Below, in pieces: positions 40,636-49,155 of a stretch of 64,000 bases of DNA. The notes beneath the pieces are model-generated. The model worked only from the letters and a program-made list of their open reading frames with translations, had not been told where the DNA came from and did not search any database. How positions within the stretch are numbered: position 1 is the stretch's first letter; each line of letters begins with the position of its first letter. Source of the stretch: Bacteroidota bacterium (GTDB taxonomy: Bacteria; Bacteroidota; Bacteroidia; UKL13-3); NCBI GenBank assembly GCA_013298895.1, contig JAAFJM010000002.1:132427-196426 (forward strand), read 5' to 3'. Both the position numbers and the translations under genes were made by a program.

Positions 40636-42090
40636 TTATTCTTTTCTTATTTTATACTTTAACTCTTGTAATTTTTGCTCAAAATAACTTGGCTGTCTTA
40701 ATTTAAACCAACTTGGTTTTGAATAATATTTTGGATTTAAAAATACATTTACATAAACAGCCCCATTTTCATAACTATTTCCATACCAATTATGATATAA
40801 AAAATCACGTTGGGTCTTGGTAAATTCAGCATTTACATTCGATTGAAGCAAAGCAGGAATGGTATCTAAATTCAAATCATTTAACGAACCAATTTTTAAA
40901 CCTTTGTCCAAATCTAAATAACGTATATCGGCACTTGAACTAATAGGGGCGTATGAATAAAATGCAATCGAATCGAAATCATTTTTTACTAGTTGTTCTA
41001 ATTTAAAAAAATTACGGTATTGCAAATTGGTGTCTGCTATTACCTTACCTGGGTAATACATAATATTTCCAATGCCTAAACTTACCAAAACCAAACTTAC
41101 AATCCATTTGAGTTGTTTTTTATTGCTTGCTTCTATCAACAAAATAATAGATAAAAACTGGCTAATCATAAAATACCTGTGGCCAATGGTATTGTATAAA
41201 AATACCGCCATGCATAGGCTATTTACCAATAAAATAATAGCACTAAAAATAAACAATTCCTTGTTTAATTTTTGTTTGAAAAACAAATAAATAAGCAAAG
41301 CATAAACAGTTAACACACCATTATCAACCAAACGCCAAATAATTAGGAATACACTTTGAATAAACTGCTTCATTCCTTTTATATCATTATGTTCGGTATA
41401 ATTGGGCGATAAAAAAGCCCAACCAAAATGCTGTTGATGAACGTACAACCAAATACCTAAAACCGTTACCGCTGGAAGAAAAAGCAACAGTCCGTTTTTA
41501 AAAAATTGGGCAATGGTTTCTTTGTTTTTAAATACTTGGTAACAATAAATAATACCAAAAGCCAATAAGAAAAAATTGGCTTGTAAATGGTTTAATTCCA
41601 TTAACACAGTGCTGATTATAAAACCTGCTTTTTGTTGTTTTATTAAATAATAAAATGCCAATAATACAAATAAGTAAAACAACGGTGTATTAAGTAATAA
41701 TGCCTGCTGAGCCACAAAAACAGAATAACACCCAGCTAACAATGTAGCTAAATTAGCTTTGGTTTCGTGGCAATAATGCAAGGCAATTTTTCTAGTAACA
41801 AAAAGAATAAAAAAGGAAATAAGTATGATTATAAAATGACTTACTACTAACGACTTTCCAAAAATCATCCAACAGCAAGCCAATAAATATGGAAACAAAG
41901 TAGGATGTCCTGGATCAAAATTAGCGGGATACCAAATAGTCTGTAAATTATTATTATAAATATTTAACGCAGCCCTTGCTGTAGAGGTAACCGCATCGCC
42001 ATGAAAAGGATCGTTTTTAATTACAAAAAACAATACCAATTGCAAAACTGCTATGATGGCTAAAATATACTTGTTAAAGGGCTTTTGCAT
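40636..42090 (-). CDS. GT-C fold glycosyltransferase-like membrane protein
   Basis: 484 residues with about ten to twelve membrane helices. The first periplasmic loop has the acidic pattern NDPFHGDAV and FDPGHPTLFPYLLA, the arrangement of the catalytic Asp loop in ArnT/PMT-like GT-C enzymes that use polyprenyl-phosphate sugars. C-terminal soluble part from about 350 includes YAPISSSADIRYLDLD. Transfer of a sugar at the periplasmic face is inferred from fold only. Starts 104 bases from the divergent dockerin-like gene. Confidence 0.75.
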   Translation of the reverse strand: MQKPFNKYILAIIAVLQLVLFFVIKNDPFHGDAVTSTARAALNIYNNNLQTIWYPANFDPGHPTLFPYLLACCWMIFGKSLVVSHFIIILISFFILFVTRKIALHYCHETKANLATLLAGCYSVFVAQQALLLNTPLFYLFVLLAFYYLIKQQKAGFIISTVLMELNHLQANFFLLAFGIIYCYQVFKNKETIAQFFKNGLLLFLPAVTVLGIWLYVHQQHFGWAFLSPNYTEHNDIKGMKQFIQSVFLIIWRLVDNGVLTVYALLIYLFFKQKLNKELFIFSAIILLVNSLCMAVFLYNTIGHRYFMISQFLSIILLIEASNKKQLKWIVSLVLVSLGIGNIMYYPGKVIADTNLQYRNFFKLEQLVKNDFDSIAFYSYAPISSSADIRYLDLDKGLKIGSLNDLNLDTIPALLQSNVNAEFTKTQRDFLYHNWYGNSYENGAVYVNVFLNPKYYSKPSWFKLRQPSYFEQKLQELKYKIRKE

Positions 42091-42194
42091 TAAATAAAAA
42101 TTGTATTGATTATTGCCTTGTGTTTAAAACCTTGTTAATTAATTGAAAATTAATAATAATTCATTTGTTATTACAATTTTAAACAACTAAAAAC

Positions 42195-42940
42195 ATGAAA
42201 AAAAAATTATTTTACTATGCACCTTTGCTAGTTTATTTGTATTTATTTCAAATGCAAGTAACGCAAAAAAAACAAATTTGTTGGTACCTCCAACCACCAC
42301 TTACAACGTTACTTTAAATTTGACAATGTTTGTTCAAGGTTATTACTTAAAAAATGGCCTTATGAACCCCAGAATTTATAATGCAGGAATTCCCTCTGTA
42401 ATTTTAAATGGATCAACTACATCACCTACATCAACGACAGTAACACCTGATGATGTTGAAGTAATACGAATAGAGCTAAGAGAAAAAACCAATCTTGCTG
42501 TTGTAGCGGCATCACAAGAGGGAGTGTTAAAGAAAAATGGAACTATGAATATTAACCTTACGAACATCCCTCCAGGTGATTATTATATTATAGTTAATCC
42601 CTCTGACCCTATTGGTAATCAGACTCACACAAGTTTTGTTTTAGCAACATGTTCTAGTGGGACTATTTCCGTTTCTTCATCCTCTACAATTAATTATAAT
42701 TTTACTACTAATAAAAACCAAGCATTTGGAGATAATCTTATAAGTTCAAATGACGGAGCATCTACTGTGTATTTATTAATAAATGGCGATATTAACAATG
42801 ATGGTTATATGGACTTTAATGATTATCCTGACTTCGATTTACAAAAACCTGATTTGGATGGAAATGGATATATGAATATCTTGGATAAATTAGTTATTGA
42901 TTATGGAAATTATTTAAACTTTTATTCAATTTTACCTTAG
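42195..42940 (+). CDS. Secreted dockerin-like protein; start codon out of frame at an A9 tract
   Basis: The main frame is open from upstream of 42195 to 42940 and encodes KKIILLCTFASLFVFISNA, a perfect signal peptide, but has no start codon of its own before a TTG at 42278 inside the mature protein. An ATG at 42195 followed by A9 is in another frame; A10 or A7 would join it to the signal peptide. The mature part (about 200 residues) has a beta domain (about 30-160, NVTLNLTMFVQGYY) and two EF-hand-like dockerin loops, GDINNDGYMDFNDY and DLDGNGYMNILD. It ends five bases before the giant T9SS gene, so both are likely one operon. No sorting domain. Confidence 0.75.
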
Positions 42941-42945
42941 TAATT

Positions 42946-45900
42946 ATGGAAAAAAAATTAATCATAATAATTGGTTTATTGTTTCTTTTTGTAAGCAACA
43001 ATAAAGCCCAAAATCTCTCTTTTTCAAATACTAATTCTGAAATTGCAGGATATAACTCTACTTTTTTTAACAAAATAGCTACAACTGACCTTGATGGAAA
43101 CGGAAAGAATGACATAGTAACTTACGAAACAAAATACTTGGATTCTTCAAGAATAGTAATAAAGGAAAGTAATTACAATTCAGGGGTAATTTCAAGTACA
43201 AGTTTTACAAACAAGTTTATTGATATTGATAGCAGAAGTTGTGCTACATCGTTATTAACTGCTGACTTGAATAATGATAAAAAACCAGAAATAATATTAG
43301 CTACCAACTTAGGTGATTTGTATATTTTTTATAATAATTCTTCTCTTGGAAATATTTCGTTTCCATCAAATACTCTAGCAACAACTGGTGTTTCAAAACT
43401 TTCTGGTTTTACAACTGAAAAAATAATAAAAGTTGAAGATATGGATGGTGATGGAGATAAAGACATCATAGCATTAATAAGAAATTCGAACACAGTTTCT
43501 ATTTATATTAATAATGCAGGAACAATATCAAGCACACCAAATAATATAGTTTATTCAAGTAGTATAAATTCATTACCTAACTTTAGTAATTTCTATGTAA
43601 CTAATATTGCTGGTTCTTTAGTTGCAGATATTGTAATAATGGAAAAAAATAAAATTTTTACTTTGGTTAATAATTCTCTAGTTTCTCCTTTATCTACATC
43701 AAGTTATACTATTAGTAGTTCGTCACATAGTTTAAATATTCAGTCAGACGCTTTATTTGAAAATTTGATATTTGCAGATTATGATAATAACGGTGATAAT
43801 GAAATTATAACTAACATACCCAATTTAAATCAAATTGCTATTTTCAACACAACTAAATTGTCTCCAATAACAATTGATGTGGAAAACATTAATCAATTAA
43901 TAAGTATTGAAGATTATGATTTAGATGGTAAAAAGGATATTTTGTATGTAAATGACAATGGTAAAATTTGTTTTAAAAAGCAAATTTTAAGAAAGCAGGT
44001 TGCAGGAACTTATAAATTAGACTTTAAACCAAGTGTTTTTGTTTCTAATGTGCTAGGAGGTATTTATAATTGTGAGTTAGCCGATATTAATAATGATAAC
44101 AAGAATGATATTTTGTTATTTAGTGGAGCGGGTTCAAATATGAACCTAATTCTAAATGAAACAAAAACCACAAAGCCAATTTTTTCAATGCCATCAACTA
44201 CTTCCACAAGTATTTTTACTCAAGTGGAATGTGCTGATTTAGATAATGATGGCAAAAAGGATATCTTAACTTTAGAAACCTACTATTTAGACTCATCAAA
44301 AATTTATATAAAAAATAATATTCATAACAGCGGTGATTTATCTGCCGCTTCTTTTGCAAGTCCCACTTTTAGCAATTTGGAATTAGAAAAAAGATGTGTT
44401 GCAACTTCTGTAAAAGTTTCAGATTTGACAGGTGATGGACCAGGTTATTCAGATTTAGTTATTGCTACTAACACCGGTCAAATCTATTTGTATGCAAATA
44501 GAGGTGGTGGTTTTCATAATTTTGGTGGCCGTTCTTTTATGGAATTAAATTATAGTTTGTCAGGAATAAATCAACTATTTGAACAGCAAATAGAATTGGT
44601 AGATATGAATAGTGATGGTTATAAAGACGTAGTTTCCATGTTACGCAATACAAATACGGTTTTAATTTATTTAAATACAACTTTGGATAGTGTTTCAAAG
44701 AACACATCTGTTTGGAATTTGAGTAATTTATATTTTAACCCTACTCCAATTGTTTTAAGTATAGGTTCGTTAGGAATATCTGATTTGAAAAGTAGTTGTA
44801 TGAAAATAAGCGATGTAGATGGAAATGGCAAAATGGATATTTTTATAAAACTAAAAAATGACTTCAAATTACTTTTAAATAATTATGATACATCTGTTAC
44901 TCCCAAATCCCTCATATCCGCATCTAACTTCAACCTTTTGGGCTATTATCATGGGAAAGAATTTACATCAAATTTGGTAGCAAATAGTATTGAAATAGGT
45001 AATTTAGATGATAATTCAGCAAACGGAAATGAAATAGTTGTTTTAGATCCAACTGATAATAAATTAGTAATTTATAATATCAATATGGCAGCCATTACTG
45101 CTGGAACACCTAGTTTAATATTAACTAAATTGACTACCGATTTTTATATTGACAGTGAAAGTGAATCAATTTCGATAGCCGATATGGACAATGATTACAG
45201 AAATGATTTAGTAGTATTAGGTTCAGAATTGATCATTTATAAAAACGTAAAAACACAAACATCATTTTCGTTCATAGAAGCTAAAAAAGTAAATGGCATA
45301 GGTACAGGAGGATTTTTAAAAATTGCTGATTTGAATAATGATGAAAAACCTGATATTACATTTGTTAATAATACGCTACAGGATATCAAAATTATTCAAA
45401 ATGATTTTGATAAAATTGGAAAAGACTATGACAATAATATTATTAAAAACAATTCACTTAATGAAGACAATATGTTGTTTCCTTTGTATTCAATTGTGGG
45501 TAATGATAAATTGAATCCAAATTTGTTGTTTGATGGAGATGAAACTTCAAATAATAGTTTTAATTTTATAAATACTACATTCACTAACGATTTTACTTTT
45601 ATATTAGATTTAAAAGATGAATACACAATCAGAAAAATTAAATATAAGGAAAACTCTTATAATGCTAATTGTTTCATAAAATTTAGTTCTGGAGATCCGA
45701 GCAATTGGAGCAGTCCTATAAGTTTTAATTCAAATCCAAGTGCTGATACAAATACCTACACCGTAAACCATGTAAATCTTACAACTAGGTACTTAAGAAT
45801 AAATGTACAAGGTGCTGGTTTTAAAATTTCAGAGTTGAAATTGGAAGGTTTTCTGTATTCTAATACCGATATGATAATACCTGAAATTGTAGCACATCCT

Positions 45901-48900
45901 AGGCCTAAAATGAGTGACATGATGGGTGTAAATGCTTCGATTAATGAGACTGTTAGTGATTTACACCAATTTAAAAATGTAAGGTATTTTCATGATTTTC
46001 ATACAACAGATACTGGTGATTCATTACAGACATACCCAAACAATTTGTACCAGTTAAACCCTGCTTATGATGGAAAACATTTTGATGGGGATCCAATAAG
46101 TTATGAGACTTATCATGGTTTTGCCTATTGGAAAAAGGGAGGAGTGAATATATTCCCTTGTATTCAAGAATCGCCTGAATGGTTAAGAAAATTGCATAAT
46201 CCTAAATTAGAAAAGTATGAGTGGGATTTTAAGCCTATTTTTCCATTAAATGGTAATTCGGAAGAGTCTGATAGCTATAAAAGTCACGCAGATTTTTTAT
46301 TTCAATTTGCTTTTAGGTATGGCAAAAACTCAAGTTTAGATACTGGATATGCTAGATTGAATTCCTCACAAACCATAAAAAAAGGATTGAATTATGTAAA
46401 ATATATTGAAAACAGAAATGAGCAAGATAAGTGGTGGAAATCAGACAAACCATATATTTATTTCTCACCTTTTGAATTTGCAGCTATGTGTAATATTGAT
46501 TACGATAATAAACAAATTTCTTTATCTACTCTAGTTTCACCTACAAATGGAATAGGTGTAAAAAATGCTGACACAACTATGAAAATGGTAATGGGTGGGC
46601 TTGCTTCCCTGGATTTGAAATATATAAAAACCATGAATTTATGGAGTCAATACCATAGAACATCAATTGGTAATAAAAGTATATTCCCAGCCGATGTTAT
46701 TAATTTGCATAATTATTCATTTAAAGTTTATTCTGGCACTAAAGAAATAGGTATAAGTCCTGAAGATGATGATTTGAAGAATAAATTAATTAACATAGTA
46801 AATTATAGAAATCAGTATTTACCCGGAAAAGAAGTTTGGTTAAGTGAATTTGGTTATTCAACATTTGATGGACAAATTACTACAAGTAATCCAAAAGAAG
46901 GAAACAGGGCTGTACCTCCACAAAGCGAAACAGGTGTGAGAAAAATGGAAACCCAAGGCAGATGGCTGTTAAGAAGTTATTTAGCCATTGCTGCTGCAGG
47001 AATAGATAAGGCCATGTGTTATACATTATTGGATGAAGACTTTAGCACCCATCAGTTTTCCAAAACGGGTCTATTTAATGTAAACTATAACAAGGCTATA
47101 ACTCCAAAACCGTCATACTTTTACATTCAATGTATGTTGAAAACATTGAATGATTATGTTTATGATTCCGAATTAAACTCAGGCAATCCAAATGTATTAA
47201 TGTATAAATTTGTTAAACCTAATTCTACCGATTTTGTATGTGCTGTTTGGTGTAAAACTTCCAACAACACAATGGTTAATAATTTCAATAACTACCCATC
47301 AATACCTATAGGTAAAAAAGGAGAAATAATAACACCCCAAATTGGAGAAGCAAAAATAACTTGCTTATCAGGTGGCATTACTGTTACGGAATTGCCTGTT
47401 TTTGTTAGGTATACAGATGTTCCAGTTTATGTTAATAGTCAAAATGAAATTTACAATTCAAATACAACAATAAACATTGACAAAGAATTTAGGGAAAATA
47501 TTGAGATTAGTAATAACGCGACACTAACTATAAATAATGCTAAAATACTAATGAATAGTGGTTCAGAAATAACCGTTAATTCTGGTTCTACTTTAATAAT
47601 TGAAAACAGTGAATTAAGGTCTAACAAGTGTTCAGCTTCTACTGTAATTTGGACAGGTATTCATGTAAAAGATGGAGGTTACTTAGTGATAAAAAACTCG
47701 GTTATTAATGATGCTAGAGTTGCTGTATTTGGTAATAATCCAAAGTCCATTACAATCGACAATAGTATTTTTGCCAATAATTGGACATCTATTGCCTTTG
47801 CAAATAACGTCTCATCTGTTTCAAATATTATAGTTAAAAACTGTGTGTTTAATTCTCAGAATTTTTACCCTAATAGTACTATTATGTTTACTTCAGCAGA
47901 TCCACGTTATTATTTAAATAGTGGAGTTCCTATTTCGAATAGTTATGTAAATATTATCAATTCGGAAAATATTGCATTATACTCAAATACTTTTTATGGT
48001 GTAAATGGAATAACAACTGTAAACACTAATCCAAGTATTCTTAGTGAGCTAGATGCTATTATTATAAAAGAGTCTGATAATATTAACATCGATTATAATA
48101 AATTTTTTAGTGGAGGAGAATTAACACTTGATAGGGCAGTTTTATGTATTGGTAATGGTGATTATACCTCTAAGAATTTATATGTTTTTAACAATACATT
48201 TAATAATGTTACTGATGCTGTTAAAGTAGATAAATATCAATCTTATTTGATAAGAAACAATAAATTTTATAGTTGTAAAATCGGAGTCGAATCTTATTGT
48301 GATAAGTATCAAAATTATAGTCCTACAGTTTTACCAAGTTGCAAAATAAGTAATAATAATTTTGATGGTTTAGAAAAAGCAATCATAATAGCACCAAAGT
48401 CCAATCCATTCTTATTTACTTCTACTATAGGGAACAACAATTTTGCAACTGGTTATTCAGCTGCCGAACATTACATTTCTATTGCATGTAATAATTTTAA
48501 TAATAATACCATAGGAATGAGTGGCACAGGTAAATTATTTGATAACTTAAATATTACCAATGGTTCGAATAGCTTTTTGAATAATAAACAATGGGATATT
48601 ATTTGGGCAAGTAATGGTTCTAATTGGAAATTTTATTACAACCAGTTAATTATTACAACACCGGTTAATTCTTCTACAAAATATGATGTTAATTCAGCAC
48701 CAACAGCTCAATTATCTAAATTACCTTGTATGCTAAATGGCGTTACTGTAACAACACCTGGTATCAATTATATCATCAATATACCAAATAGTAATGATTG
48801 TAATTATATTACGCCTTTTCCAAATTATCAACCTGACAATTCATATATATATAGTTCTTTGTCTAAAATGATTAGTGAACCAAAAGCATTATCAACAGTT

Positions 48901-49155
48901 GAAACTAAAAAAATAGTGAATGGATTGGTTTTATATCCTAATCCAGCAACTGATAAGTTAATGATTCAAAATTTAGGTGAACAATATAACTTTAGAGTTA
49001 AATCAATAAGTGGACAAGAATTGCTGAATGGTCAAATTAATAATTCTGAAAGTTCAATTAGTATAAATACACTGAAAGATGGTATTTATATTATAGAATT
49101 AATTAATAATAAATTAGAATTTCAAACTTTAAAGTTTGTTAAACTAACTAATTAA
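42946..49155 (+). CDS. Giant T9SS-exported protein: FG-GAP propeller, discoidin-like, GH-A barrel, beta-helix, sorting domain
   Basis: 2,069 residues. Signal peptide (IIIIGLLFLFVSNNKA); FG-GAP/VCBS-like repeats with D-x-D-x-D-G calcium loops (about 30-830, for example MDGDGDKD, LDNDGKKD); a discoidin/F5-8C-like domain (about 855-965); a clan GH-A-like barrel (about 980-1470) with candidate acid/base Glu1159 in ENRNEQDKW and nucleophile Glu1301 in VWLSEFGYS, 142 residues apart as expected; a right-handed parallel beta-helix rich in Asn-Asn-x-Phe turns (about 1500-1915); and a type A sorting domain (about 1990-2069, LYPNPATDKL). It should be a cell-surface or released glycan-active enzyme; the GH family is not fixed. 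Followed by a 34-base palindrome. Confidence 0.88.
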   Translation: MEKKLIIIIGLLFLFVSNNKAQNLSFSNTNSEIAGYNSTFFNKIATTDLDGNGKNDIVTYETKYLDSSRIVIKESNYNSGVISSTSFTNKFIDIDSRSCATSLLTADLNNDKKPEIILATNLGDLYIFYNNSSLGNISFPSNTLATTGVSKLSGFTTEKIIKVEDMDGDGDKDIIALIRNSNTVSIYINNAGTISSTPNNIVYSSSINSLPNFSNFYVTNIAGSLVADIVIMEKNKIFTLVNNSLVSPLSTSSYTISSSSHSLNIQSDALFENLIFADYDNNGDNEIITNIPNLNQIAIFNTTKLSPITIDVENINQLISIEDYDLDGKKDILYVNDNGKICFKKQILRKQVAGTYKLDFKPSVFVSNVLGGIYNCELADINNDNKNDILLFSGAGSNMNLILNETKTTKPIFSMPSTTSTSIFTQVECADLDNDGKKDILTLETYYLDSSKIYIKNNIHNSGDLSAASFASPTFSNLELEKRCVATSVKVSDLTGDGPGYSDLVIATNTGQIYLYANRGGGFHNFGGRSFMELNYSLSGINQLFEQQIELVDMNSDGYKDVVSMLRNTNTVLIYLNTTLDSVSKNTSVWNLSNLYFNPTPIVLSIGSLGISDLKSSCMKISDVDGNGKMDIFIKLKNDFKLLLNNYDTSVTPKSLISASNFNLLGYYHGKEFTSNLVANSIEIGNLDDNSANGNEIVVLDPTDNKLVIYNINMAAITAGTPSLILTKLTTDFYIDSESESISIADMDNDYRNDLVVLGSELIIYKNVKTQTSFSFIEAKKVNGIGTGGFLKIADLNNDEKPDITFVNNTLQDIKIIQNDFDKIGKDYDNNIIKNNSLNEDNMLFPLYSIVGNDKLNPNLLFDGDETSNNSFNFINTTFTNDFTFILDLKDEYTIRKIKYKENSYNANCFIKFSSGDPSNWSSPISFNSNPSADTNTYTVNHVNLTTRYLRINVQGAGFKISELKLEGFLYSNTDMIIPEIVAHPRPKMSDMMGVNASINETVSDLHQFKNVRYFHDFHTTDTGDSLQTYPNNLYQLNPAYDGKHFDGDPISYETYHGFAYWKKGGVNIFPCIQESPEWLRKLHNPKLEKYEWDFKPIFPLNGNSEESDSYKSHADFLFQFAFRYGKNSSLDTGYARLNSSQTIKKGLNYVKYIENRNEQDKWWKSDKPYIYFSPFEFAAMCNIDYDNKQISLSTLVSPTNGIGVKNADTTMKMVMGGLASLDLKYIKTMNLWSQYHRTSIGNKSIFPADVINLHNYSFKVYSGTKEIGISPEDDDLKNKLINIVNYRNQYLPGKEVWLSEFGYSTFDGQITTSNPKEGNRAVPPQSETGVRKMETQGRWLLRSYLAIAAAGIDKAMCYTLLDEDFSTHQFSKTGLFNVNYNKAITPKPSYFYIQCMLKTLNDYVYDSELNSGNPNVLMYKFVKPNSTDFVCAVWCKTSNNTMVNNFNNYPSIPIGKKGEIITPQIGEAKITCLSGGITVTELPVFVRYTDVPVYVNSQNEIYNSNTTINIDKEFRENIEISNNATLTINNAKILMNSGSEITVNSGSTLIIENSELRSNKCSASTVIWTGIHVKDGGYLVIKNSVINDARVAVFGNNPKSITIDNSIFANNWTSIAFANNVSSVSNIIVKNCVFNSQNFYPNSTIMFTSADPRYYLNSGVPISNSYVNIINSENIALYSNTFYGVNGITTVNTNPSILSELDAIIIKESDNINIDYNKFFSGGELTLDRAVLCIGNGDYTSKNLYVFNNTFNNVTDAVKVDKYQSYLIRNNKFYSCKIGVESYCDKYQNYSPTVLPSCKISNNNFDGLEKAIIIAPKSNPFLFTSTIGNNNFATGYSAAEHYISIACNNFNNNTIGMSGTGKLFDNLNITNGSNSFLNNKQWDIIWASNGSNWKFYYNQLIITTPVNSSTKYDVNSAPTAQLSKLPCMLNGVTVTTPGINYIINIPNSNDCNYITPFPNYQPDNSYIYSSLSKMISEPKALSTVETKKIVNGLVLYPNPATDKLMIQNLGEQYNFRVKSISGQELLNGQINNSESSISINTLKDGIYIIELINNKLEFQTLKFVKLTN

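Follow-up and report, generated by a model that had tools for sequence, protein, structure and literature searches.

The window, a stretch of 64,000 nucleotides from a Bacteroidota bacterium, contains a gene for a secreted protein whose probable start codon, ATG 42195, runs straight into nine A and lies in a different frame from the protein body on the other side of the tract. The explanation that we rank first, and to which we give about even confidence, is a sporadic one-base indel in an ordinary secreted-protein gene, leaving an OFF or low allele that replication slippage could revert and that is probably leaky.

Direct reading of the stretch around the start gave CAACTAAAAAC ATG AAAAAAAAA TTATTTTACTATGC, with TTATTTTAC directly after ATG 42195 and its nine A (Table 1). 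This confirmed the central claim of an earlier sequence-only reading of this DNA, that the tract places the gene out of frame. The intact frame encodes (K)HEKKIILLCTFASLFVFISNASNA and then the mature protein; KKIILLCTFASLFVFISNASNA is the N-terminal part of what 42191-42940 encodes, with the mature protein after it. The same reading had held that no start codon opens the frame encoding signal peptide and mature protein, and that the ATG frame soon loses sense. Both points stood: scanning from 42191 found no ATG, GTG or TTG before TTG 42278, which is past the signal peptide, and the ATG 42195 frame stops after 40 codons. Its frame arithmetic was likewise correct, a tract of 7 or 10 A putting ATG 42195 in frame with the body. 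In the ATG 42195 frame, the tract forms A_AAA_AAA, a −1 slippery heptamer. The ORF list holds only the 220-aa TTG form of this gene, and the GC content of the window is 27-36% in 2-kb blocks.

Table 1. Features of the A9 locus and its neighbourhood (positions in the window).
Feature	Position	Strand	Basis
Probable start codon ATG of the secreted-protein gene	42195..42197	+	Sequence; initiation context
A9 tract	42198..42206	+	Sequence; 1 of 169 genomic A9/T9 runs
Frame opened by ATG 42195 (40 codons; stop at 42315-42317)	42195..42317	+	
Intact frame, stop-to-stop, 249 codons; signal peptide (by eye), beta-sandwich, dockerin/EF-hand-like C-terminus	42191..42940	+	
A8 run just past the signal peptide, within the intact frame	42265..42272	+	
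Intergenic region separating the minus-strand gene 40636-42090 from the divergent A9 gene	42091..42194	.	
2069-aa secreted protein; FG-GAP repeats, T9SS type A tail; ATGG + A8 start, in frame	42946..49155	+	

ATG 42195 is probably the true start of the secreted-protein gene. According to the available part of PMC6847099, A at positions -3, -6, -12 and -13 are positive determinants of initiation in Flavobacterium johnsoniae, and ATG 42195 has A at all four; so do 33 of the 2229 ATGs of the window, and only 1 of the 43 first ATGs of its ORFs of at least 150 aa, which leaves the context a weak test. A promoter scan of 42080-43000 gave 6 sigma-70-like matches against a shuffle mean of 6.8, no excess, and the search for known RNA elements at the locus returned a single match (E 0.52), under the gathering score.

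The 249-codon body is a real gene, since its open frame is beyond chance (20,000 first-order Markov resamplings of this region gave no such frame) and it has homologues. Its codon-position GC (0.36, 0.37, 0.21) is like that of the large downstream gene (0.33, 0.34, 0.19). Across 27 aligned homologues, identity to the window protein is 29-37%, and 10 columns of the family alignment are invariant, mostly D or G of the calcium-loop region. Matches were found in 8 of 58 relatives' genomes, its own included, and in 11 of 64 genomes of the order, a set overlapping with the 58; the top match outside the gene itself has 38% identity over part of the query. In a collection of named genomes that may omit the own or very near genomes, a scan with the single protein found nothing, and a five-member alignment as query found 32 loci, all in MAGs, mostly titled Bacteroidetes, Bacteroidia or Chitinophaga, with one Ignavibacteria. 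No orthologue with an in-frame start was found in the 64 genomes of the order (own included), the 58 relatives or the named genomes, and the own-genome paralogues L321 and L322 gave no phmmer match at 1e-5.

The protein had been called dockerin-like, which holds weakly for the family and not for the window protein by itself. The profile of alignment A2 matched PDB chains weakly, EF-hand chains best (E 5e-5) and dockerin-named chains at E 0.006-0.04, and it matched cellulosomal enzyme fragments at E 0.0025-0.08. Pfam Dockerin_1 was found at E up to 0.01 in 3 of 28 family members, the window protein not among them; alone, it matched neither Pfam nor NCBIfam at E 0.01. Its AlphaFold2 model has a mean pLDDT of 68.9, with blocks above 90 in the beta sandwich and values below 50 in most of the C-terminal repeats (residues 204-242), and a structure search with this model gave no PDB match at E <= 0.001. 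In the relatives' loci that we read, longer proteins carry this module at their C-terminal end. Shorter forms, of 265 and 268 codons, also occur in G018, and one of them starts ATG AAA AAA AAT, in frame. The sandwich with its dockerin-like module recurs as a C-terminal tail (18 matches in G018, 9 in G006), and the module loci read (L002, L055-L058, L323-L325 and others of G018 and G006) end in a short motif like NNGVIxxxP. The module might be an anchoring or sorting tail.

The T9SS gene that had been placed 5 bases downstream is indeed there. It starts at 42946, 5 bases past the stop ending at 42940, and its type A tail scores above both cut-offs (Por_Secre_tail / TIGR04183 in 42946-49152; Pfam 36.4 bits, cut-off 27; NCBIfam 37.1 bits, cut-off 23); an F5/8-type-C-like stretch is weak and below cut-off. 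It starts with an ATG of its own and may be independent of the upstream frame. With ATGG + A8 at 42946-42957, both genes of the pair have a slippery start. The middle of the 2069-aa protein (residues about 878-1489, window about 45577-47412) has matches in four congeners, in open frames 696-704 codons long (two stops lie inside one match), and two partial copies lie in the own genome (G000:C33:19552-20409 and C68:3623-4690). A single-sequence search of this middle part gave no PDB sequence match at E 0.01, and it is perhaps a poorly described domain.

We then set the tract against all 188 A/T runs of at least nine bases in the draft genome (90 contigs totalling 3,615,081 bases, with an estimated completeness of 98.64% and contamination of 2.49%; the window is on contig C12), of which 169 have nine bases, 17 ten, one eleven and one thirteen. 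A script that can miss breaks with short flanking frames classified all of them and flagged 26 as candidate frame breaks. Twenty of these were inspected (19 by eye and the A9 locus) and six were judged from the script's positions. Two frame breaks were left after this review, the A9 locus and dnaX (G000:C5:41710-41719); the other flagged runs were adjacent genes (L312, for example, lies between two genes), runs in leaders or intact frames. By an automatic rule that can admit spurious ORFs and that includes the short dnaX frame, ORFs that have a start and 100 or more codons contain 86 of the 188 runs, and we found none of these broken apart from dnaX. The longest A-run of the assembly, an A13 (G000:C59:4196-4208, L200) on a 6-kb contig, adjoins a fragment that is recombinase-like by eye.

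Runs of A directly after an ATG are found repeatedly in this genome. Nine sites have an ATG with nine or more A behind it: three in-frame gene starts (A10, A9 and A9), the A9 locus and five that are not start-like. ATG followed by exactly eight A occurs at 38 sites, of which 29 were parsed (one was too near a contig end and eight were left out); 13 of the 29 are in-frame gene starts, counted as ORFs of at least 100 aa with little open frame upstream, none is a broken start, and the rest are in other frames or without a clear gene. Altogether, 16 of 17 judgeable gene starts with ATG and eight or more A are in frame, mostly signal peptides by eye, and the runs follow the ATG because the AAA lysine codons of signal peptides are written in AT-rich DNA. 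By our own, non-formal criterion, the A9 tract itself is ordinary for this genome and not above background. The frame break is best taken as a single event, because only the A9 locus and dnaX are broken among the 188 runs. The same count led us to reject an endosymbiont-like, genome-wide reliance on slippage. The likeness to AT-rich endosymbionts that had been drawn is therefore loose, for a genome of 3.6 Mb with 2 of 188 runs at breaks, and what survives of it is the very probable use of A10 slippage or frameshifting at dnaX.

The broken dnaX (L100:801-810; NCBIfam TIGR02397 above cut-off) reads ...GAC TTA AAA AAA AAA TAG; the -1 frame holds the tau-specific part. A dnaX search matched 58 of 58 genomes, G016 and G043 weakly (near E 1e-5) and G046 in part, and the 30 best loci of these (L156-L185) were compared with a BLAST-anchored script. 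A run of nine to eleven A is kept at the site in all 30; dnaX is split in 17 of them and unsplit in 13, and an added A or a -1 shift rejoins the frames in every one of the 17. The A10 with its immediate stop is common to 10 of 10 genomes of the genus. Among the same 30 best loci, several sister genera have the run in frame, the default product (gamma or tau) flipping within one family. The split fits a published type of recoding: of the 17 split dnaX genes of Antonov and colleagues, 12 have poly(A), which is ten A long in nine (PMC3711429). Slippage or frameshifting on the A10 is thus very probably in use at dnaX of this genus, which would mean that the lineage misreads long A-runs productively. 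This does not show that the same happens at an A9 beside a start codon. The A9 locus shares with the A10 split (of the GeneTack type, with the A9 slippage of Thermus, as given in the available part of PMC3711429) an A-run with frames joined by an added A or a -1 shift, whereas the dnaX split is common to the genus and taken to make two useful subunits, two features that the A9 locus may lack.

For the A9 locus, the sporadic mutation that we prefer would have worked as follows. The lysine-codon run after the ATG, in the n-region of the signal peptide, would have gained or lost one base and so produced an OFF or low allele. The indel would have been made recently by replication slippage on the A-run, which could also undo it. 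Some correct precursor MKKKIILLC... could come from a minority of mRNAs into which a slipping RNA polymerase has put an extra A, or from ribosomes that shift by -1 on A_AAA_AAA, and the downstream T9SS gene would be read from its own ATG. The break appears recent or tolerated, because the 249-codon frame is open, with homologues and a well-modelled core. Reversion is plausible in populations given the published indel frequencies (PMC2831843): swrA, flhA and vaa, whose 5' poly(A)/poly(T) tracts have 7-9 bases, show about 1e-3 to 7e-6, and inlA shows lower values, about 5.5e-7 (A6 to A7) and 4e-8 (A7 to A6). As to the leak, the available parts of the sources give nine as the shortest run on which RNA polymerase slips (PMC3694819), describe an exponential rise of transcript insertions with run length (PMC5574713), find that selection against such runs is visible at nine in a large proportion of genomes (PMC1088944) and give, for a cited study, 30% full-length transcripts in frameshifted symbiont genes (PMC3017870). 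Leaky rescue at A9 is plausible, and is weakened because no frame-restoring error was detected in the Buchnera transcriptome, according to the part available of Traverse and Ochman (PMC5574713). The poly(A) genes of Blochmannia and Buchnera are similar in having a single indel in an otherwise intact gene with possible mRNA rescue, and differ in number, with eight such genes in B. vafer and here one beside dnaX (available part of PMC3017870).

Sporadic mutation, assembly miscount, selected phase variation and programmed recoding are all known kinds of event, and we rank them in this order. Homopolymers are a common site of assembly errors, and in a draft of 90 contigs with the completeness and contamination given above, an assembly or consensus error, or the assembler's pick of a minority allele while most cells hold an in-frame tract, is the next candidate, an unlikely one in our estimate. 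A systematic homopolymer error is improbable when the 86 runs inside ORFs are unbroken except at dnaX, although a lone assembly error is as possible as a lone mutation.

Less likely again is a tract that selection maintains to switch a surface or secreted protein ON and OFF. That such tracts slip is established, and in that respect the proposal of a phase-variable off-state was sound; yet nothing that we found shows a phase-variable operon, and in-frame starts prevail among the A-run starts. The protein class and the position of the tract match the 5' poly(A) systems inlA (A7/A6), swrA (A9/A8) and Vaa (A8/A7) (PMC2831843), but post-ATG runs recur in this genome and are explained by the AAA codons of signal peptides, and no second genome with the gene was found, hence no polymorphism was seen. 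Each of these systems also differs from the A9 locus. In Listeria monocytogenes inlA, a one-base change in the 5' poly(A) of a surface-protein gene leads to a short peptide (A7 in frame, A6 truncated; PMC2831843), and alleles and reversion were measured there, whereas here there is one assembled sequence with a longer tract and an unrelated protein. In Bacillus subtilis swrA, the length of a run of 8-9 A near the 5' end sets ON or OFF (PMC2831843), and rescue by transcript slippage has been proposed (available part of PMC3874003); swrA, however, encodes a regulator and high-frequency switching is reported for it. In Mycoplasma hominis vaa, the 5' poly(A) controls a surface antigen (PMC2831843); the switching frequency was estimated there and the protein differs. 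Among the top results of our literature search, judged by title or start of abstract, no Bacteroidota locus with such start-proximal poly(A) or phase variation appeared, which does not establish absence.

Programmed recoding, with A9 as the functional state and RNA polymerase slippage or a -1 ribosomal shift yielding a fraction of the product, seems more doubtful still. The run has at least nine A and an added A joins the frames, as in the criterion for transcriptional-slippage (PTR) genes, and the direction is that of dnaX, where the run is retained in all 30 best loci and the 17 splits are all joined in the same way. Against this, one in two random indels would go in that direction, no orthologue was found in the 64 genomes of the order on which conservation could be checked, the downstream RNA structure is not unusually stable, and a shift at codons 2-4 makes no obvious useful short product. 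A stimulated ribosomal frameshift was rejected as a candidate: 42185-42285 has no unusual fold (z-score -0.55; distant or pseudoknotted elements lie outside this fold). Fainter still is the chance that the start-proximal A9 is a built-in low-dose setting in the genus, in which RNA polymerase or the ribosome would slip so easily on A9-A11 that nominally OFF DNA would give a steady fraction of extra-A mRNA, and replication slippage would turn lineages fully ON. A non-standard start with nothing broken is the least credible reading, for although ATT is a rare start in Table 11 and TTG 42278 opens 220 codons, ATT 42206 or 42209 would drop the charged n-region, TTG 42278 is past the signal peptide and the A-rich initiation context belongs to ATG 42195.

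If genuine, the allele is an OFF state of a secreted-protein gene at a 5' poly(A) tract in a species of Bacteroidota, and it warns that automatic annotation can lose or mis-start such genes. The genus-wide dnaX run offers a natural control for measuring slippage tolerance. Should the improbable low-dose setting be true, a secreted protein that probably binds calcium would be coupled to a T9SS partner and subject both to an epigenetic leak and to genetic phase variation.
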